Of a DNA stretch of 64,000 bases, positions 2,124 through 9,883 are shown piece after piece; within the stretch, counting starts at the first letter, position 1, and each line of letters opens with the position of its first letter. This DNA comes from Bacteroidota bacterium (GTDB lineage: Bacteria > Bacteroidota > Bacteroidia > Bacteroidales > JACABE01). Made by a program: the position numbers and the translations under genes. Location: the NCBI GenBank assembly GCA_013377005.1, contig JACABE010000023.1, forward strand, positions 1-64,000, given 5' to 3'. Below the pieces are notes generated by a model. That model searched no databases, was not told the origin of the DNA, and worked only from the letters and a program-made list of their open reading frames with translations.

Positions 2124-3710
2124 TCTCGCAGATGGCGTGGATGAGACGCTAAAAAACCCACAGTAATTTGTTGATAACTTTTATGGTGTAATTTTCTTAT
2201 TTTCATTAGATTTAGTAACTTTAATGTATGAAATTCATACAAGGAGAAAACAGGAATCAAATACATCTTTTTCCACAATCGTTGGAAGCATCCATCGCTC
2301 TTGATAATGAAGTAAGAGTAATAGACCTTTTTGTTGATAGCTTGTCATTAAAAAAATTTGGATTCGACATGGACTTTATCGAAAATTGTCGCCCTGCGTA
2401 TCATCCTGCAGATTTACTCAAGCTTTTTATTTACGGGTATCTTAACAGGATACGTTCTTCGAGAGACTTGGAAAAAGAATGTAAAAGAAACATCGAGTTA
2501 ATGTGGCTTATGAAAAGCCTTCAACCCGATCATAATACCATCTCTAATTTCAGGAGAGATAATCCCATAGGGATAAAAAGAGTTTTTAGGGCAAGTGTAC
2601 AGATAGCCAAACATTTTGATTTGATTGGGGGTAAGCTGATAGCCGGAGACAGCACCAAGCTGAGAGCTCAGAATTCAAAAAAGAATAATTACAATCAGGG
2701 TAAAATAGAAAGACATTTGGTTTATATTGAAAATAAACTGGAAGAATATACAAAGATGTTGGCAACAGAGGATTTAGAAAACAGGGCCATTATAGAAAAG
2801 GAAATAGCAAAGCAGCATCAGCGAAAAGCCAACTATCAAAGGTTATCACAACAACTTATTGAAACTAATGAAGAACAGATATCAACTTCTGATCCTGAAA
2901 GCCGGCAAATGATTACCAGAAATAATATAACAGAAGTAGCCTATAATGTTCAGACAACAGTAGACGGCAAACATAGTATCCCAATCGATTATAAAGTTAC
3001 AGCCAACAACGACAGTAAAGCCAAGGGTAATATGTTGCAACGAGCCAAAACTATATTGCATACCAATGAATTTACTGCACTTTACGATAAAGGATATCAT
3101 ACAGGCAGCGAAATGAAGGTGGCAGAGGATCTGGGGATCAATGCCATTGTTGCTATACCGGATGTAGCTTCCAATGCACCTGATGAAAGATATAACGTTG
3201 CAAATTTTCAATACAACAAAGAAGATGATGCTTATATCTGCCCCGAAAATAAGGTTTTAGAGACCAATGGAAATAATTAAAACAAGAACAGAGGAAAACA
3301 CAGAGCAATAATCCTGGTAAAACACTATAAAACTAGTGTCTGCAAAATATGTTCTAAAAGAGAACTCTGCACCAAAAACAAGAGTGGAAGATTGATAGAA
3401 CGCAGTCAATATGCTGAATATATAGAACAAAAGAGAAAAAGGGTAGCAGCCAACCCAAAACTCTATAAACGACGGCAATCTATAGTGGAGCATCCCTATG
3501 GAACCATAAAACGTCAATGGGGATTCTATTCTATACAAACAAAAAAAAGCAAGGCAAGGGCAAGTGCCGATATAGGACTTATGTTTATAGCCTACAATCT
3601 GAGACGAATAATGAATATTTTAGGACACGAAATCTTCAAAAACTACCTAAGAGTAGTTTTTTCTACTGTTTTATTGTTTTTTGGACTCATTCAACGCCGG
3701 ATAAGTCATT
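2124..3710 (+). mobile_element. IS1182-like insertion sequence (approximate ends)
   Basis: The element is defined by the transposase and by imperfect terminal inverted repeats. The left end around 2124-2148 contains GATGGCGTGGATGAGAC. The reverse complement of the right end (3684-3710) contains CCGGCGTTGAATGAGTC, so GGCGT and ATGAG are shared with one or two gaps. Exact ends and any target duplication cannot be fixed by eye. The right end directly abuts the second copy of the 135-bp direct repeat. The transposase is interrupted, so the copy is probably not autonomous. Confidence 0.6.
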
Positions 3711-3766
3711 TTAAGCTTGCTATATATTTTACAAATTATAACAATATATTCATCAGGGTTTGCTAA
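2228..3766 (+). pseudogene. IS1182-family transposase with one in-frame stop codon
   Basis: The frame encodes a transposase of about 512 residues with the N-terminal DUF772-type region (AYHPADLLKLFIYGYLNRIRSS, split here: motif around residues 55-80). The DDE-type catalytic part has AGDSTKLRAQNS near residue 140, YDKGYHTG near 287, and a late HPYGTIKRQWG segment after the break. Codon 351 (3278-3280) is TAA. Downstream the same frame continues without a gap through a CKIC...LC cysteine motif (codons 375-386) to the stop at 3764-3766. The damage is therefore a single nonsense mutation, not a frameshift. Unless the stop is read through, the protein ends before the conserved C-terminal glutamate region and should be inactive. 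Confidence 0.85.
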
Positions 3767-3846
3767 AAAACATTATTTTTGATGAGAATTTGATAAAAAC
3801 GGAGGTTATTAGACGAACTGAAGTTAGCAACTATTTTAGAAAAAGA
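3713..3846 (+). repeat. Direct repeat, copy 2 (partner at 68-200)
   Basis: It begins AAGCTTGCTATATATTTTAC, as in copy 1, and ends with TTAGACG (3809-3815) and GTTAGCA (3823-3829). The last part looks like the 3' boundary of an attC-type site and would be the 5' boundary of the SRPBCC-MarR cassette that follows. Confidence 0.7.
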
Positions 3847-3892
3847 CCTTGCAATCTTAAAAAAGACATTATACAGTTTGAATGAAAACAAA

Positions 3893-3936
3893 TTTACATA
3901 TTATATGTTTACATATTATCTTTGCACAGATAATAT
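3893..3936 (+). promoter_or_regulatory. Promoter with overlapping operator palindromes for SRPBCC-MarR pair
   Basis: A Bacteroidota-type -7 element TATCTTTG lies at 3917-3924, 38 bp before the start codon. Two symmetric elements overlap it. ACATAT-T-ATATGT (3896-3908) is a perfect palindrome. ATATTATCT-N6-AGATAATAT (3913-3921 and 3928-3936) is a perfect 9-bp inverted repeat whose spacer contains the end of the -7 element. The 12-mer TTTACATATTAT also occurs twice, 15 bp apart (3893 and 3908). MarR proteins are dimers that bind such palindromes, so autoregulation by the second gene is the likely reading. Confidence 0.65.
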
Positions 3937-3962
3937 ATTATTAATTCAAAAAAATCAAACGT

Positions 3963-4382
3963 ATGTGGACTAAATCTCATTCAATCGTAACGAAAGAAGT
4001 TACAAAAGAACAAATGTGGAAATTGATATCCGATGTAAATAATTGGCATACTTGGGACCATGGAATAGAATTTGCCAAAATGGAAGGGGAATTTAAAAAA
4101 GGAAATAAAATTCTTTTAAGACCTAAAGGAGGCCCAAATGTAAACATTGAAATTTTGGAAACTAATAAAAATAAAAGGTTCTATGATGTTTCTAAAATGC
4201 CATTAGCCAAAATATATGACGATCATATTTATGAAGACACTGAAGATGGGCTTAAAATTACAGGAATTATTTCTGTTACAGGAATTTTAGGGTTTTTATG
4301 GGTAAAGTTAGTTGCTAAAAAATTGGCTGATTCTTTGCCAACCGATATACAAAAGCAAATTAATGTGGCTTCAAGTTTATGA
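3963..4382 (+). CDS. SRPBCC-family (START-like) protein
   Basis: A 139-residue cytosolic protein with the SRPBCC/polyketide-cyclase-like pattern. An amphipathic first strand (MWTKSHSIVTKEVTKEQMWKL) is followed by VNNWHTWDHGIEF, central strands with KGNKILLRPKGG, and a C-terminal helix. This fold binds hydrophobic ligands, but the ligand is not predictable here. The stop codon overlaps the start of the MarR gene (ATGA at 4379-4382), so the two are translationally coupled. SRPBCC plus MarR is a recurrent pair in Bacteroidota. The pair appears to be one cassette-like unit between the boundary at 3823 and the element at 4843. Confidence 0.8.
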   Translation: MWTKSHSIVTKEVTKEQMWKLISDVNNWHTWDHGIEFAKMEGEFKKGNKILLRPKGGPNVNIEILETNKNKRFYDVSKMPLAKIYDDHIYEDTEDGLKITGIISVTGILGFLWVKLVAKKLADSLPTDIQKQINVASSL

Positions 4383-4834
4383 AATCAACAGATAATACAT
4401 TTAGTGTTGATAAACCTGAAGAAAGTTCAGGTTTCTTATTATGGCAAGTAACAAACCTCTGGCAACGAGAAATTAAAAAGGCATTAGAAGATTATGGATT
4501 AACGCACTCTCAATATGTATTATTAGCAAGTATTTATTGGCTGACAATTCATAAACAAGAAGTAACTCAAATTGTGTTGTCGGCTCACACGAAAATTGAC
4601 CCAATGACAACTTCAACTGTTTTAAGAACGCTTCAACAAAAGGGTTTAATACAAAGACAGGAGCATATGACTGACACAAGAGCCAAGACAGTTGGTCTTA
4701 CCGAAGATGGGAAAAACATGATTAAGAAAGCTGTTGTAACTGTTGAAAAATTTGATGCCGATTTTTTTTCTAAACTCGGGACTAAGGCAACAGAATTTAA
4801 TGACAATTTATTAGTTTTACTTGAACCGAAATAA
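4379..4834 (+). CDS. MarR-family winged-helix transcriptional regulator
   Basis: A 151-residue protein. The N-terminal helix FLLWQVTNLWQREIKKALEDYGL leads to LTHSQYVLLASIYWL (typical MarR helix 1-2). A winged helix-turn-helix follows at about residues 55-110, with the recognition part KIDPMTTSTVLRTLQQKGLI and wing residues MTDTRAKTVGLTEDGK. The C-terminal helix serves dimerisation. It probably represses its own operon through the palindromes at 3896-3936 and may respond to a ligand handled by the coupled SRPBCC protein (inference). The attC-like element begins 8 bp after its stop. Confidence 0.88.
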   Translation: MKSTDNTFSVDKPEESSGFLLWQVTNLWQREIKKALEDYGLTHSQYVLLASIYWLTIHKQEVTQIVLSAHTKIDPMTTSTVLRTLQQKGLIQRQEHMTDTRAKTVGLTEDGKNMIKKAVVTVEKFDADFFSKLGTKATEFNDNLLVLLEPK

Positions 4835-4842
4835 AAACGGCC

Positions 4843-4936
4843 GCTAACATACGCCTATGTCCATTGGCTGGCTGAAGTGCATTTAGCGGTCTTTGCTCCT
4901 GCAAACCACCAAATAAATATAGCCTCGGGCGTTAGC
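4843..4936 (+). repeat. attC-like intergenic element 1
   Basis: The element starts GCTAACATACGCC (4843) and ends GGGCGTTAGC (4927-4936). The outer GCTAAC/GTTAGC pair is a perfect inverted repeat, and CGCC/GGCG and CTAT/ATAG inside can pair further. Such imperfect hairpin symmetry with AAC...GTT ends is typical of integron attC sites, and the ends resemble Vibrio-type repeats. It lies between two unrelated short genes. No covariance search was possible. Confidence 0.6.
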
Positions 4937-4970
4937 AAGTATTTAGGAAAAACACTAAAAATAAATTATT

Positions 4971-5429
4971 ATGTACAAATTTTTTAAAATACTTTTAATA
5001 TTAGTTTTTGCAATTATTTTTAAATCATATTCGCAAGAAGTATTTATACCAAAATATTTTACTGTCATTTCTAAGGAAAAAGGGAAGCAAATGTTGAATC
5101 AATGCTCAAGAGCAACACCAAGAAAAGTTAAAAAATTCTTCAATTTGACTCAAAATGAAATTCAAAAATTAGACACTTGTTTTTTAAATTATTTCAAAAA
5201 AGAGTACTTAGAAATGTATGCATTTCAGTATATTGGATTAATAATAAAAGGTAAAAAATATATTAATATTAATGCTTTTGCAATTGATAATGACATTATT
5301 AATAATTCAAACAATAAATGGAAAACAGAACCAGTTGACGTTTGTGATGGTGGAGGTGCATTCTGGGGAATATTGTTTAATATTGAGAACTGTTCATTTA
5401 GTCAATATGGTTCTAATGGAATAGCATAA
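4971..5429 (+). CDS. Secreted protein of unknown function (cassette-like gene)
   Basis: A 152-residue protein with a clear signal peptide (hydrophobic residues 5-17, cleavage near SYSQ). The mature part is unrecognised. It contains LNQCSRATPRK near residue 42, a single-domain alpha/beta pattern, and a C-terminal VCDGGGAFWGILFNIE block followed by QYGSNGIA, which looks like a conserved family signature. It lies between two attC-like elements. The sequence GTTAGCAAG at 4931-4939 before it is the exact reverse complement of CTTGCTAAC at 5448-5456 after it. Export to the periplasm is supported; any role is unknown. Confidence 0.7.
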   Translation: MYKFFKILLILVFAIIFKSYSQEVFIPKYFTVISKEKGKQMLNQCSRATPRKVKKFFNLTQNEIQKLDTCFLNYFKKEYLEMYAFQYIGLIIKGKKYININAFAIDNDIINNSNNKWKTEPVDVCDGGGAFWGILFNIENCSFSQYGSNGIA

Positions 5430-5447
5430 GAATTAAAACAATAAACG

Positions 5448-5570
5448 CTTGCTAACAGCACCTTGCTGCTAGCAGGGTTAAACAAAAATGTGAAATGAAC
5501 AACATTAATAAACAAAGCAGTAAACTGAAAGGAAAGGACTGCCTGAAAGCAAGCTGCGGAAAGTTGGGGC
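5448..5570 (+). repeat. attC-like intergenic element 2
   Basis: Begins CTTGCTAACAGCACC and ends CTGCGGAAAGTTGGGGC. It shares TAACAGCACC, GTGAAAT(G/A)AACAAC, CTGAAAGGAAAGGA and AGCTGCGGAA in the same order with the element at 8646-8787, so the two are homologous although the genes around them are not. The ends form an imperfect hairpin (CTTGC, AAC, TTGCT and CAGG pair with the far side). Confidence 0.6.
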
Positions 5571-5604
5571 AAGTTTTAAATTATCGTACTAAATAAAAAT
5601 ATTT

Positions 5605-6066
5605 ATGGCAAAAGAAATAATTGTTGAAAAATCTATTATTATAGATAAACCAAGTTTGGAAGTATTTAATTTACTTAAAATTACAAAAAACCAAGAGAAT
5701 TTTAGTGTATGGAACATGAAGGACCCAAATAAGGAAACTACATCGACAGGAACTGATGGAACTGTAGGTTTTAATTACACATGGAATAGTAAAAACAATA
5801 GCGTTGGAGCAGGCAGTCAAAAAATCATTACGCTTATTGAAGGTGAGCTTATTGAATATGATTTAAAATTTGAAAGACCAATGAAGAATGTGGGCAAATC
5901 AAAATTTGCTATTCAATCATTGTCGAGTACACAAACAAAAGTTACATGGACTTTTCTAGGTCCAACAAAATTTCCAATGAGTTTATTTAAAAGAATATTT
6001 CAGAAAATGCTGGGAAAAGATATAATCCAAAGTCTTGAAAACCTTAAGATACTTTTGGAAAAATAA
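5605..6066 (+). CDS. SRPBCC-family protein
   Basis: A 153-residue cytosolic protein. The first strand EIIVEKSIIIDKPSLEVFNLL is followed by the NFSVWNMKDPN segment, a glycine-containing central sheet (GTVGFNYTW...VGAGSQKI) and a C-terminal helix (SLFKRIFQKMLGKDIIQSLENL). This is the polyketide-cyclase/START-like fold that binds small hydrophobic ligands. It is not closely similar to the SRPBCC protein at 3963-4382, so it is not a local duplicate. It stands alone between elements 2 and 3, with only about 35 bp between the upstream element and its start. Confidence 0.78.
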   Translation: MAKEIIVEKSIIIDKPSLEVFNLLKITKNQENFSVWNMKDPNKETTSTGTDGTVGFNYTWNSKNNSVGAGSQKIITLIEGELIEYDLKFERPMKNVGKSKFAIQSLSSTQTKVTWTFLGPTKFPMSLFKRIFQKMLGKDIIQSLENLKILLEK

Positions 6067-6069
6067 ACC

Positions 6070-6252
6070 AGCCTATAACAGCACCAATGCAAAATGATAA
6101 GGACAGTACGAGTTGCATATGTTTGTCACAGCGATATAAATTTATTTCTAAACAGTTGCAAGCCACTTTTTGCTATTAAATTACATTTGTAGTAGCAGGC
6201 ATAGGACAGTGCAAGTAAATCCGCACTTCGCTTTAGCTGCGGAACGTTCATT
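6070..6252 (+). repeat. attC-like intergenic element 3
   Basis: Starts 4 bp after a stop codon with CAGCCTATAACAGCACCAATGC and ends near GCTGCGGAACGTTCATT. It shares the TAACAGCACC head and GCTGCGGAA tail with elements 2 and 4 but has a longer unrelated centre. The 120 bp after it, up to 6375, hold no recognisable gene or clear promoter. Confidence 0.5.
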
Positions 6253-6375
6253 AAACCCATCAACAAAAAGCAAGGAAACTTTTTTAACAATTTTTCCCTC
6301 CCCATGCAACCCTTTTCGCAATAATTATGTCTAAAAGGCAATTATTTCATTTTATCAAACAAATTAAAACCTTTT

Positions 6376-7926
6376 ATGAAAAAACTAAGTTTTACATTAC
6401 TTCTATCGCTTTGCGTATTACTGATTCAGGCTCAAAGCACAGCTTATCTCAAAGTAGCTAACAACGGTTATTTTGAAAAAATTGAAAAAGTTTCCTCCGG
6501 TGGATATATCACTACGGGTTTCGACAGTGCCTACAAAGTTCAGGTCATTCGTTGGGACAATAGTTTTAACATGACATGGAAATATGTTTTCAACGATACC
6601 AACATCATGGTTGGTTCACCCAAAATAGTGGAAGCTAATGACGGTAGTTTTTATTTTTTAATGGGTTCGCATGAATATACAGCATCTACCTGGATTGTGA
6701 AATTCAGTTCGGCTGGTGCTTTAGTATGGCAGAAAATATATTACCTGACTTCGGGCAATATGAATTCAATAGCCCTATCGAAAGCTTTGCCCGGCGACAA
6801 CGGCTTTTTGATAGGAGGCGGGCAGAATACCTTATCTAATTATATCATAAAATGTGCTGCCGATGGCACAATAGAGTGGCAAAACCAATATTTATATCCT
6901 TTGAGCACAGGCGTAATTACCTGCTATAGTATTATAGCTGATGGAACGGGGTATGTGGTTTCGTCGAGTTACAACATCAACTCTTTATTGACCATGAAAA
7001 TCAGCGCTACAGGAAGCATCAGTTCGCATTCGGCTTATACTTATACAGGAATGCAGATAATCCCTAGCCGCATTGTGAAACTAAATACTACCGGTGGATA
7101 TGCCATTGTGGGAGGATATAACAATACCAACAACAATAAAACTGAATTTGTGGCAATTTACAACGCTGCACTCAGCTTGCAATCGTTCAACGAACTTACG
7201 GTAACTTATAATCAGTTTGTCCTTAATGATATTACAGCTATCAACAATGGAAGAAGCATGATTGTTGACGGAAGTATTTACGATAACTCGGCTTTTACCA
7301 TTGCCATGATTAATCTTTCGAACACCGGCTCTGTTATCTGGAAAAAAAGAGCCTACGGAAACACTACTACAACCAATAAAAATGTTGAATTCAGGGGTCT
7401 CACCGAAAACGGAATTACGACGGTTCATGTTGGACAAGGAATAAATGAAGGCCGTGTGATTGCTGTGATTGATAGCAATGGAAATGGTTTGTGTAACAAC
7501 GATATGGCATTTAATATGACCAATGTTCACCCAACCCTCGTTTTGCAATCGCAAACCATGAGTGTGGCAACGGCCAATGCAATGAAATCTAATGTTAGTT
7601 ATGCTTACTCGAATTATGCTTCGTATAATAAACAGATTTATTGTGGAAACCTTTTGACAATTGATGACAATACAGGAAACCAGGTTATAGTTTCCTCCAT
7701 TTATCCTAATCCTGCCACTGATATGGTAAATCTGAATATTGAAAACCCCGACAATGCAAAACTGACATTAAATATTTATTCGATGACCGGCAAATTGATC
7801 AGGACTGAAATGCTAAAACAGAATCAGAGCCGGATTAATATTGATGATTTAAATAATGGAATCTATATGTTTGAAATCAAATCTGATGAATGGAGAACTA
7901 CTCAGAAACTGCTAATAAATAAGTAA
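6376..7926 (+). CDS. Secreted T9SS type A protein, probable beta-propeller
   Basis: A 516-residue protein with a signal peptide (MKKLSFTLLLSLCVLLIQAQ). About 390 residues carry repeated blade-like units in which a G-G/S-Y/F-I-x-G strand alternates with W-containing strands (examples: SGGYITTGFDSA, NGFLIGGGQNT, GGYAIVGGYNN). Such spacing of about 50 residues suggests a beta-propeller. The C-terminal type A sorting domain starts at SSIYPNPATDMVNLNI (about residue 440) and ends QKLLINK. Export by T9SS to the cell surface or medium is expected. No catalytic motif is visible. It interrupts the run of short cassette-like genes and is closed by a strong terminator. Confidence 0.82.
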   Translation: MKKLSFTLLLSLCVLLIQAQSTAYLKVANNGYFEKIEKVSSGGYITTGFDSAYKVQVIRWDNSFNMTWKYVFNDTNIMVGSPKIVEANDGSFYFLMGSHEYTASTWIVKFSSAGALVWQKIYYLTSGNMNSIALSKALPGDNGFLIGGGQNTLSNYIIKCAADGTIEWQNQYLYPLSTGVITCYSIIADGTGYVVSSSYNINSLLTMKISATGSISSHSAYTYTGMQIIPSRIVKLNTTGGYAIVGGYNNTNNNKTEFVAIYNAALSLQSFNELTVTYNQFVLNDITAINNGRSMIVDGSIYDNSAFTIAMINLSNTGSVIWKKRAYGNTTTTNKNVEFRGLTENGITTVHVGQGINEGRVIAVIDSNGNGLCNNDMAFNMTNVHPTLVLQSQTMSVATANAMKSNVSYAYSNYASYNKQIYCGNLLTIDDNTGNQVIVSSIYPNPATDMVNLNIENPDNAKLTLNIYSMTGKLIRTEMLKQNQSRINIDDLNNGIYMFEIKSDEWRTTQKLLINK

Positions 7927-7978
7927 TAGGGAGTATAGATGGTTTAATATTAAATACCAAAAAATACTGATTATCTTT

Positions 7979-8007
7979 AACCCGAAGTGTATGCTTCGGG
8001 TTTTTTT
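7979..8007 (+). terminator. Rho-independent terminator
   Basis: A 9-bp stem AACCCGAAG/CTTCGGGTT with a 6-base loop and a run of T, 52 bp after the stop of the T9SS gene. Confidence 0.9.
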
Positions 8008-8028
8008 GTTAAATGAATTTATTTTAAG

Positions 8029-8056
8029 TTTTGGTGATAAATATCGTTTATATTTG
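8029..8056 (+). promoter_or_regulatory. Possible promoter for the downstream short genes
   Basis: TATATTTG (8049-8056) fits the TAnnTTTG -7 element. TTTTGG at 8029-8034 could be a -33 element, but the spacing is shorter than usual. The first codon downstream is at 8150. Confidence 0.35.
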
Positions 8057-8119
8057 TGCGGAAATGTCTGACAATTATCAAGAAAATCCTACCGAAAAAG
8101 GAGGTAAGGGATGTATTTG

Positions 8120-8151
8120 TTAGACGTATAATAATGTTATGCACTACATAT
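8120..8151 (+). other. Cassette-type 5' boundary
   Basis: TTAGACG (8120-8126) is followed by GTTATGCACTACATAT (8136-8151), which runs into the start codon. The reverse complement of that 16-mer matches 15 of 16 bases at 8646-8661, directly after the gene. The same TTAGACG then GTTA arrangement occurs at 164-184 and 3809-3829. GTCTGACAA at 8066-8074 can pair with TTGTTAGAC at 8117-8125 with one mismatch. Confidence 0.55.
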
Positions 8152-8638
8152 GAAAAAAGCAACACTAATCTTAATATTTATCTTTTTGACAATATTAAGT
8201 AAAGCTCAAGAGGTAAAAATTAATTATAATGATAGTAACTTACTAATGTCGACATGGAATAAATTTATTCAAGCAATTGACAACTCTGACAGAAAAACAA
8301 TTAAATCACTATCAAAAGACTCTGTTGAATGTTATTGTGGGAATGACAGTATTGAAAGTGACAGACCAATATGGGCAGTAGATAGCTTTTCTAGATTAAT
8401 CATTTCATATTTTGAAACGAATCTAAAGCTTAACAAAATAGTAAAAACAGAAACACCTCAATTAATAGCTAATAGAGTTGATTGGGTTAAAAATAAACCT
8501 GAGATAATATATTCATTAGTATATGTATTATATAAACCAAATGAAATTGCTCCTGGGCATGAAGGTGGAAGTATCTTTTTTGAATTCAATAAAATAAAAA
8601 ACAAGTTTGTTTTTAGAAGCATTTCAACCGTACCTTGA
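8150..8638 (+). CDS. Secreted protein of unknown function (cassette-like gene)
   Basis: A 162-residue protein with a signal peptide (MKKATLILIFIFLTILSKAQ). The mature part starts with a helix-rich LLMSTWNKFIQAIDNSDRKTI segment, then strands around ECYCGNDSIESD, and ends IFFEFNKIKNKFVFRSIS. The order of helices and strands, with 'WNKFIQAIDNSDRKTIKSLSKD', is reminiscent of NTF2-like folds, but that is a weak impression. The gene is flanked by complementary 16-base ends, which marks it as a complete cassette-like unit of about 650 bp. Confidence 0.65.
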   Translation: MKKATLILIFIFLTILSKAQEVKINYNDSNLLMSTWNKFIQAIDNSDRKTIKSLSKDSVECYCGNDSIESDRPIWAVDSFSRLIISYFETNLKLNKIVKTETPQLIANRVDWVKNKPEIIYSLVYVLYKPNEIAPGHEGGSIFFEFNKIKNKFVFRSISTVP

Positions 8639-8645
8639 CAAAAAT

Positions 8646-8787
8646 ATATGCAGTGCATAACAGCACCATGCTTCAATCATGTTTTAACAACAAAGTGAAA
8701 TAAACAACAAGTTATAAATATAGCAGCGGGCTGAAAGGAAAGGAATTTTATACACACGCCTGACAACAAGCTGCGGAACATTAGCCA
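8646..8787 (+). repeat. attC-like intergenic element 4
   Basis: Starts ATATGCAGTGCATAACAGCACC and ends CTGCGGAACATTAGCC. It shares ordered blocks with element 2 (TAACAGCACC, GTGAAATAAACAAC, CTGAAAGGAAAGGA, AGCTGCGGAA). The first 16 bases mirror the sequence preceding gene 8150-8638. Confidence 0.6.
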
Positions 8788-8805
8788 CCATTTTAAAACA
8801 GAAAA

Positions 8806-9810
8806 ATGAAACAAGGAGTATTAATAATGGCTATAATCTTGTTCGGATTACAGAGTTGTAATGTTGGGACATATGATTCTGTTTCAAATGAAAAAATTGA
8901 TGCTCAAATTAAAAATGAAATCAACGATTTAGACAAAATAGTTGTAAAATCAATTTTTGAAAATAATCCAAAGCTTATTAAAGGGATTATGTCAGATATT
9001 TTAGTAAAGCAGAGTGGAGATAAAATAGATGATATAATACATCAAACAAACAGTTTGGTGGATAATAAAGAAGTTAGAGTTTTAGACCAATTTTATGTAA
9101 AAAATACGACAAAAGGGCTATCAAATACTGTAATGTCTGGACTAAATGGTCAAAATGATTATATAATTCATTATAAAGCAGAAAATAAGGAAATATTCAT
9201 TTCTCTTATAGTTCTGAAAAATGGACTTGATGAATTGCTGTCAACCAATATATATGGTAAATATAAAGAAGGCTGGAAACTTAACATTATTCATATTGGG
9301 GAGTACACTCTTAATGGCATGACAGCCACAGAACTTTACAAAAAAGCAAAAGAACAATATGAAAATGGATTTTTGGTTGACGCAGCTAATAATATGTTTT
9401 TAAGTTCTCAAGTCTTAAAACCTGCGAATGGATATTGGCAATACCAAATTGAGCAAGAAATGAAAAAATTCTATGAGCTTATGATAGGTAAAACTAAGGA
9501 CAAATACCAATTTCCGATAACTCTTATGAAAATTGAAACCAAGCCTCAAATATTAAATATTTCACCACAAGGCATGAATGAAGGTTACTTTCCCTTGATA
9601 AATTATCTAACTAAAATAGACCTTAAAGATACGTTGAGAACTAGAATTGAAAATGATAAAATACATAATTTGATAGGTACTATTTTTAAAGGAATTGATT
9701 TGGATAAAAAATATATTTTTTACAAAGCTTGGAATGAAATTCCGGATGGTAAAAACTCTAAACCTAATTATGGATTTGTGAAAAAATTGGAAATAAAAAA
9801 CGGTGTATAA
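8806..9810 (+). CDS. Putative lipoprotein of unknown function
   Basis: A 334-residue protein with an N-terminal hydrophobic stretch and the lipobox LQSC (Cys 18), so it is likely lipid-anchored after signal peptidase II processing. The rest is soluble and charged. There is a GTYDS start, an IIHIGEYTLNGMTATELYKKAKEQYENG segment that reads like one TPR-type helix pair (about residues 163-200), and a C-terminal beta-rich part. No enzyme motif was recognised. It starts 19 bp after element 4, and its stop codon overlaps a degenerate TATAACAGC, as if this were another cassette whose 3' site is eroded. Confidence 0.65.
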   Translation: MKQGVLIMAIILFGLQSCNVGTYDSVSNEKIDAQIKNEINDLDKIVVKSIFENNPKLIKGIMSDILVKQSGDKIDDIIHQTNSLVDNKEVRVLDQFYVKNTTKGLSNTVMSGLNGQNDYIIHYKAENKEIFISLIVLKNGLDELLSTNIYGKYKEGWKLNIIHIGEYTLNGMTATELYKKAKEQYENGFLVDAANNMFLSSQVLKPANGYWQYQIEQEMKKFYELMIGKTKDKYQFPITLMKIETKPQILNISPQGMNEGYFPLINYLTKIDLKDTLRTRIENDKIHNLIGTIFKGIDLDKKYIFYKAWNEIPDGKNSKPNYGFVKKLEIKNGV

Positions 9811-9835
9811 CAGCAAAATACGAAGCCACTTTTAA
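9806..9835 (+). repeat. Degenerate attC-like element head
   Basis: TATAACAGCAAAATACGAAGCCAC after the lipoprotein gene resembles the head of element 3 (TATAACAGCACC and AAGCCACTTTT). No matching tail is present before the next promoter, so the site looks truncated. Confidence 0.3.
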
Positions 9836-9883
9836 ATTATAAATTTTTTTCGGCAAAATACTTTTTCTTACTTATATTTTTCT

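Follow-up and report, generated by a model that had tools for sequence, protein, structure and literature searches.

A Candidate Integron-Like Cassette System of Bacteroidota, Probably Served by a Tyrosine Recombinase with HARP-Like Domains

Introduction

Integrons comprise an integrase gene, intI, an adjoining attI site and gene cassettes that carry attC sites. In classical attC sites the 7-bp R boxes have the form RYYYAAC/GTTRRRY, only the bottom strand recombines, and an integrated cassette begins with the complement of the R'' box at its other end. Clusters of attC sites lacking integron integrases are known as CALIN. The I2 helix of IntI has been credited with the switch to recombination of folded single-stranded DNA (ssDNA) (PMC7790495). 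Integrons have seemed all but missing from Bacteroidota: of two RefSeq surveys, the first gave only In0 there and the second a complete integron, that of Salinibacter (PMC9024848). IntegronFinder surveys in the literature likewise report hardly any in Bacteroidetes.

This article concerns a cluster of short genes and palindromic elements in a stretch of 64,000 nt, the window, on the forward strand of contig JACABE010000023.1 from a Bacteroidales genome; window coordinates are positions of this stretch. A preliminary description, made from the letters of the window, had noted, at 3809-9835, short plus-strand genes each closely followed by an element with a TAAC head and a GTT(A) tail. This arrangement is indeed found, over 3809-9845, with heads of the form (T)AAC. 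The proposal had been a CALIN-like cluster "or a similar recombination system not yet named". Of these two the latter is the better fit, and the classical IntI/attC cluster has to be given up. We consider it likely (roughly 0.85) that the stretch is a gene-cassette cluster of an integron-like system in Bacteroidota, moved by a tyrosine recombinase with HARP-like domains. No description of such a system was found in the literature searched, which did not extend to preprints and most subscription journals. Below, G000 is the window's genome (92 contigs) and G001 and G002 are sister genomes.

Unit Architecture and Complementary Ends

The architecture of the units can be read directly from the sequences compared. 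Each has the form GTT-N7-A ... gene ... C-N7'-AAC, followed by a palindromic attC-like element, and its start (GTT-N7) is the reverse complement of its own end. The match extends over about 15 bp with a mismatch at position 11, where almost all starts have A and almost all ends have C, giving an A.C mismatch on the top strand and a G.T pair on the bottom strand. In 15 units the start was complementary to its own end at 61 of 90 positions between 5 and 10, compared with 29.6 for permuted ends (p<=1e-5). Complementarity between own start and own end was also significant at positions 8-14, and did not extend to the ends of other units. Pairs with the full signature, defined as 10 exact positions, A/G at position 11 and renewed pairing afterwards, numbered 45 at 14 loci of larger fetched regions, some of them cross-pairs of a repeated unit, compared with 0.45 in shuffles. 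Other mismatch types tested at position 11 yielded a single pair.

These ends differ from classical R boxes. Only 6 of 85 units begin with GTTRRRY, and pairing reaches about 15 bp. In a control IntI array from Thiodictyon, matches beyond 7 bp were at chance (22/72) with no A/G at position 11, and control IntI-type regions read in the same way had GTTRRRY starts. Units of the HARP recombinases matched at 472 of 680 positions beyond 7 bp, but had been selected for high matching; the unbiased comparison is therefore the permutation test on 15 units.

Candidate Integrase and attI-Like Site

We regard as candidate integrase a tyrosine recombinase that bears one to three N-terminal HARP-like domains and lies outside the IntI clade. 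The copy in the window's genome (G000:C42:10545-11951), on another contig, is an intact open reading frame (ORF) with its catalytic residues in place, and downstream of it lies a first cassette, GTTGTAACACATTTT ... AAACGTGTTACAAT, around a 115-aa gene. On one contig of a sister genome (G001:C308) the recombinase, an attI, a cassette with 14/15 matching ends and an element of the window's type all lie on one strand. G187, which belongs to a different family of the order, encodes recombinases of 365 aa. Directly behind them, on the same strand, come TATAAACGA and GTT and then cassettes whose ends match, with their palindromic elements.

Association of units with the recombinase was assessed at 47 loci, taken as the distinct HARP recombinases behind which 1200 nt or more of sequence was available. 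A first unit begins within 300 nt of the recombinase stop codon in 31 of them (range 23-276 nt, median about 99), compared with 0 upstream and 0.7 in shuffles. The first unit is preceded by an attI-like consensus, TATAAA(C/T)(A/G)A before GTT (TATAAACRA|GTT). The recombinase gene has the same orientation as the cassettes and reads toward the array.

The genome search for IntI that the preliminary description had suggested found none over the cut-off of TIGR02249 in the window's genome. Candidate integrases score 165.3-218.5 bits with this model, against a cut-off of 265, and IntI forms a separate clade with support of 100/100; one long-branched HARP recombinase falls within the IntI clade, a placement flagged as possibly false. 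The I2 insertion is absent, since matches to the IntI model skip positions ~181-239 with only 16-17 residues between. The catalytic part of one recombinase reaches 230.5 with NCBIfam NF040815 recomb_XerA_Arch (cut-off 220), and others 183-207. Family recombinases (E<=1e-100) were detected in about 13% of the Bacteroidota genomes sampled (51 of 395), some on plasmids, and 23 of 28 examined carry the N-terminal domain. At E<=1e-45, 264 of 393 Bacteroidales genomes match, a threshold that takes in Xer-type background. Relatives in IMG/VR were without the N-terminal domain.

Two other sets of candidates were rejected. Tyrosine recombinases at G187:C97, G001:C436 and G016:C239, considered as integrases adjoining elements, are IS91-associated, and a 102-nt leader shared in G001, considered as attI, is probably an IS91 end.

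The N-terminal domain, present in 63 distinct recombinases, is 55 residues long. HARP (PF07443) is the Pfam family it matches most often, with hits for 8 of 26 domains at E values down to 8.8e-6, and the SMARCAL1 HARP structure 4o66 ranks second when the domain profile is compared with the PDB (E=0.24). A motif, FxY..eLI..iK.ip...W....k.W.ip, is common to both. These matches to HARP are suggestive only. No paper joining HARP with such recombinases was found in the literature search; to our knowledge, the HARP domains described so far sit in annealing helicases, not recombinases.

The Element Family

Elements 2 and 4 of the window (Table 1) had been described as homologous, and they are, with 81% identity over 52 nt, 73% over 40 nt and 81% over 31 nt. 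A covariance model, R1, was made from 22 copies, including these two, which score 109 and 130 bits as members of its own alignment. The preliminary description had also suggested looking for further copies. They exist: the family is dispersed, with 16 matches at E<=0.001 in the window's genome, 9, 16 and 2 copies in the other three genomes of the genus, and one copy in a sister genus by plain DNA search. The same search found no family copy in 35 other genomes of the order. With R1, more diverged copies were detected elsewhere in the order (14 genomes among 295), with paired changes in the arms (GCGGTTTGC/GCAAGCCGC; GCAGCTTGTTG/CAACAAGCTGC; ATAGTGCATTTGGCA with TGCCAAACGCACCAT), and element arms pair across families. 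The named relatives are Bacteroidales and other Bacteroidetes metagenome-assembled genomes, several from lakes.

The elements contain AAC/GTT triplets and a palindromic two-arm fold, as in the attC sites first proposed; their core, at ~15 bp, exceeds the 7-bp R box. Rfam gave no match at gathering scores. Unguided RNAalifold found no long stem, and the element structure was therefore set by hand. The bottom strand is predicted to fold more stably than the top in 18 of 20 rebuilt sites (p=0.0003). The difference stems from the arms, as the core by itself gives p=0.15. In two genera, element copies have tandem repeats beside them whose period is 21 or a multiple of it, 42 or 63 (Table 1).

The Cluster in the Window

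The features of the cluster are collected in Table 1, with related features of other contigs. Strong complementarity, with A/G at position 11, is seen in unit B (13/15) and unit E (14/15); matches of at least 13/15 are expected 0.017 times per shuffle of the stretch. Units A and F each reach 11/15, again with A/G at position 11, a value weak and not significant by itself. The start and end of unit C gave no complementarity in the 15-bp comparison, which suggests that this unit is degraded or recombined. Elements 1 and 5 have no match with R1, which places element 1 outside the sequence family. In unit A the gene products match Polyketide_cyc2 (28.3 bits) and MarR (37.8 bits), and that of unit C matches Polyketide_cyc2 at 26.8 bits, just under the cut-off. 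The right end of the broken insertion sequence (IS), CGGAGGTTATTAGACG, directly adjoins unit A; an end of the same IS also lies inside another element copy (L008, G000:C1).

Table 1. Features of the window's cassette cluster and of related loci elsewhere.
Feature	Position	Strand	Content	Gene end/AAC head
Broken IS transposase	2228..3816	+	ORFs 2228-3280 and 3392-3766; DUF772 transposase domain 69.4 bits	
Unit A	3823..4848	+	start GTTAGCAACTATTTT; SRPBCC gene 3963-4382; MarR gene 4379-4834; end AAC 4846-4848	4834/4846
attC-like element 1	4846..4931	+	AAC head to G of next GTT; GCTAAC/GTTAGC arms	
Unit B	4931..5456	+	start GTTAGCAAGTATTTA; secreted unknown gene 4971-5429; end TAAACGCTTGCTAAC	5429/5454
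attC-like element 2	5448..5570	+	R1 family; 109.2 bits, E 2.3e-27	
Unit C	5563..6079	+	SRPBCC-like gene 5605-6066	6066/6077
attC-like element 3	6077..6246	+	AACAGCACC ... TTTAGCTGCGGAACGTT; sequence and alignment A1	
T9SS-sorted secreted protein gene	6376..7926	+	Por_Secre_tail 64.3 bits; no own element after gene	
Unit E	8136..8661	+	start GTTATGCACTACATA; secreted unknown gene 8150-8638; end ATATGCAGTGCATAAC	8638/8659
attC-like element 4	8653..8787	+	R1 family; 130.5 bits, E 2.3e-33	
Unit F	8780..9811	+	degenerate start ATTAGCCACCATTTT; lipoprotein gene 8806-9810; end overlaps stop codon	9810/9809
Truncated element 5	9809..9845	+	AACAGCAAAATACGAAGCC...; closes cluster	
Tandem repeats near elements	L063 11142-12047; L006 301-575, L003 1689-1976; L220 2721-2992; L217 8718-8964		G000:C4; G000:C23; G143:C234; G143:C101	
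IS91-like end at elements	L036, L057, L065; L127; L128		G001 C93, C71, C78 (first ~100 nt); G187:C97; G194:C38	
True IntI genes, Bacteroidales	G272:C68, G190:C389, G205:C46, G334:C40, G011:C50, G087:C95		most without recognisable array nearby	
Repeated ~300-bp unit	L278 2260-14824, L411 9540-9845 (reverse-complement coordinates)		G226:C1; no obvious gene	
IS110-family transposases and group II intron in plasmid arrays	L287 13278-14279, 15744-17060; L288 15941-16999; L289 11847-13202			
Toxin-antitoxin-like pairs (by eye)	L061 6879-7390, 9758-10317, 11107-11677		G002 array; YoeB/Phd-like, MazEF-like	
Defence-like early cassettes (by eye)	L204 3436-6920, L203 6464-10009, L220 30-1713		HsdR-like, UvrD-like helicase, Vsr-like endonuclease	

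The gene for a protein sorted by the type IX secretion system (T9SS) had been taken to interrupt the cluster. The gene is there, but an orthologue 79% identical by tblastn (G002:C27) also stands directly behind an element (11044-11188 of L062), with quite different cassettes upstream. It is an anchor common to the window and G002, not a cassette with its own element. There is neither an attI nor an adjoining recombinase at the window cluster, which is for this reason CALIN-like; "integrase-less", as it had been called, is right for the cluster but not for the genome, which encodes the candidate integrase at G000:C42.

Cassette Gain, Cargo and Insertions

Exact breakpoints and unit duplication are directly visible in two cases. 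Two Chryseobacterium plasmids are 86-90% identical through their partition and recombinase genes, up to the GTT of attI, beyond which the cassettes are unrelated. In G226, a single-contig genome, a unit of ~300 bp and its site occur at seven places, 88-100% identical, with different neighbours and edges at GTT. This repeated unit, which has no obvious gene, is possibly an ORF-less promoter cassette.

Toxin-antitoxin-like pairs, uniformly oriented, occur in other arrays of the window's genus, and early cassettes of several arrays appear defence-like. Further arrays were found on plasmids of Rufibacter tibetensis and Pontibacter kalidii, with IS110 insertions, and a group II intron also lies within the plasmid arrays (Table 1). 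In classical integrons, IS110 and group II introns insert at attC sites. In three families, a hairpin with ATTTAGTnCAAC, probably an IS91 end, adjoins attC-like elements at their AACA; it looks as though IS91 takes these elements as a target.

Proposed Mechanism and Alternative Explanations

In the mechanism proposed, a cassette would be excised as a circle in which its two ends meet. The bottom strand, when single-stranded, would fold into a hairpin: an R stem of ~15 bp, then a bulge on one side, then a long L stem. The recombinase, encoded elsewhere on the chromosome, would recombine this hairpin with the attI-like site behind its own gene, or alternatively with another element. The HARP-like domain may take the part of the I2 helix in reading the hairpin junctions. 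The window's cassettes were probably seeded in this way; we infer their capture from family membership, rather than adjacency, as the link to the integrase.

Several points weigh against this account. Strong end-complementarity is present in only two window units, unit C has none and the T9SS gene lacks an element. The recombinase lies away from the cluster, and 16 of the 47 HARP-recombinase loci have no first unit. For the cassettes of the window itself, no pair of intact and empty alleles was found. Apart from the gene of the T9SS protein, their genes have no relatives among the fetched loci, which leaves them without a direct gain/loss pair. Elements within the genus are too alike to give strong covariation of the inner stem. 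The match to HARP falls short of the Pfam cut-off, with the best whole protein at 22.5 bits against 25. Recombination itself, catalysis, strand choice and the role of the HARP-like domain are deduced from sequence. In support, the two outcomes that the preliminary description had named as contrary to its proposal were both contradicted: an attC-like bottom-strand fold is predicted, and clean gain of single units is seen in the Chryseobacterium plasmids and in G226.

The cluster might instead be a classical CALIN, left over from an ordinary IntI/attC integron that has lost its IntI or has it hidden in an assembly gap. True IntI genes do exceed the cut-off in 6 of 393 Bacteroidales genomes, one of which (G087) also carries a diverged element. 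But none is found in the window's genome, no significant R1-type match lies near the IntI loci examined, and the units, with their longer pairing and rare GTTRRRY ends, adjoin HARP recombinases rather than IntI; such an origin is improbable. The sites might also be real and served in the window's genus by another recombinase, either XerC/XerD or a 276-aa chromosomal tyrosine recombinase. The latter is present in G000, G002, G003 and G004 and scores 172.8 and 188 bits with the integron and XerA models, and G003 and G143 carry elements, yet no close HARP recombinase was seen in these two genomes. However, the 276-aa gene (G000:C46) lies between ordinary genes on a contig without elements, and was set aside for that reason, whereas HARP recombinases are followed by units in many families. 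We give this explanation little credence.

That the elements are passive palindromic repeats, such as terminators or sequences like repetitive extragenic palindromes (REP) or miniature inverted-repeat transposable elements (MITE), which happen to follow genes, would agree with their dispersal at many loci, each behind a gene. It would not account for a unit start that covaries with its end across the gene, and the breakpoints exactly at GTT in plasmids and the repeated unit already contradict it, making it very improbable. Least credible of all is transfer by IS91-type rolling-circle transposition, although IS91-type ends adjoin elements in G001, G187 and G194 and IS91 with its own tyrosine recombinase lies inside arrays. 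IS91 ends are one fixed sequence, unlike the variable and mutually complementary unit ends, most arrays are without IS91, and no IS91 transposase is annotated in most plasmid arrays examined; the pattern fits IS91 targeting the element.

With the integron-like system driven by the HARP recombinase as the preferred explanation, we lean toward a broader view: a second, IntI-independent integron lineage, in which an XerA/IntI-like recombinase would have acquired HARP-like domains that read folded single-stranded ends, replacing the I2 helix. It would shuffle cassettes phylum-wide, on chromosomes and plasmids, without being recognised by standard integron tools. If so, there would be an alternative route to folded-ssDNA recombination, and a large reservoir of shuffled small genes in Bacteroidota would be accounted for. 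Two testable questions follow: what recognises the hairpin where I2 is missing, and whether strand choice is set by the fixed position-11 mismatch.

Comparison with Known Systems

The unit ends, which vary and covary, are unlike the fixed terminal sequence of IS91. The N-terminal domain shares a motif with HARP of SMARCAL1, an annealing helicase (PF07443, 4o66), but all matches are below threshold. NF040815, named "site-specific tyrosine recombinase/integron integrase", covers the catalytic part of the recombinase; the model names no array, attI or HARP-like domain. Closer in layout are the chromosomal integrons of Treponema, whose integrase gene has, atypically, the same orientation as the cassettes (PMC3607928); they differ in using IntI and in having attC sites of 63-132 bp with typical R and L boxes. 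A CALIN is defined by two or more attC reported by IntegronFinder with no integrase close by; the window has several attC-like sites and no neighbouring integrase.

From integrons as a whole, including the sedentary chromosomal kind, the Bacteroidota system differs in its recombinase, which is not IntI (165-219 bits vs 265), lacks I2, bears N-terminal HARP-like domains and reads toward the array, whereas the usual integron integrase is divergent from its cassettes. In place of GTTRRRY, its core ends have ~15 bp of pairing, interrupted by a fixed position-11 mismatch. The order of integrase, attI and cassettes is seen at HARP-recombinase loci (31 of 47) and not at the window cluster. What the two have in common is a tyrosine recombinase gene with an adjoining attI-like site, one-orientation arrays of mostly single-gene cassettes, palindromic AAC/GTT sites with unit starts complementary to unit ends, a predicted bottom-strand preference, toxin-antitoxin-like and defence-like cargo, and insertions of IS110 and a group II intron.

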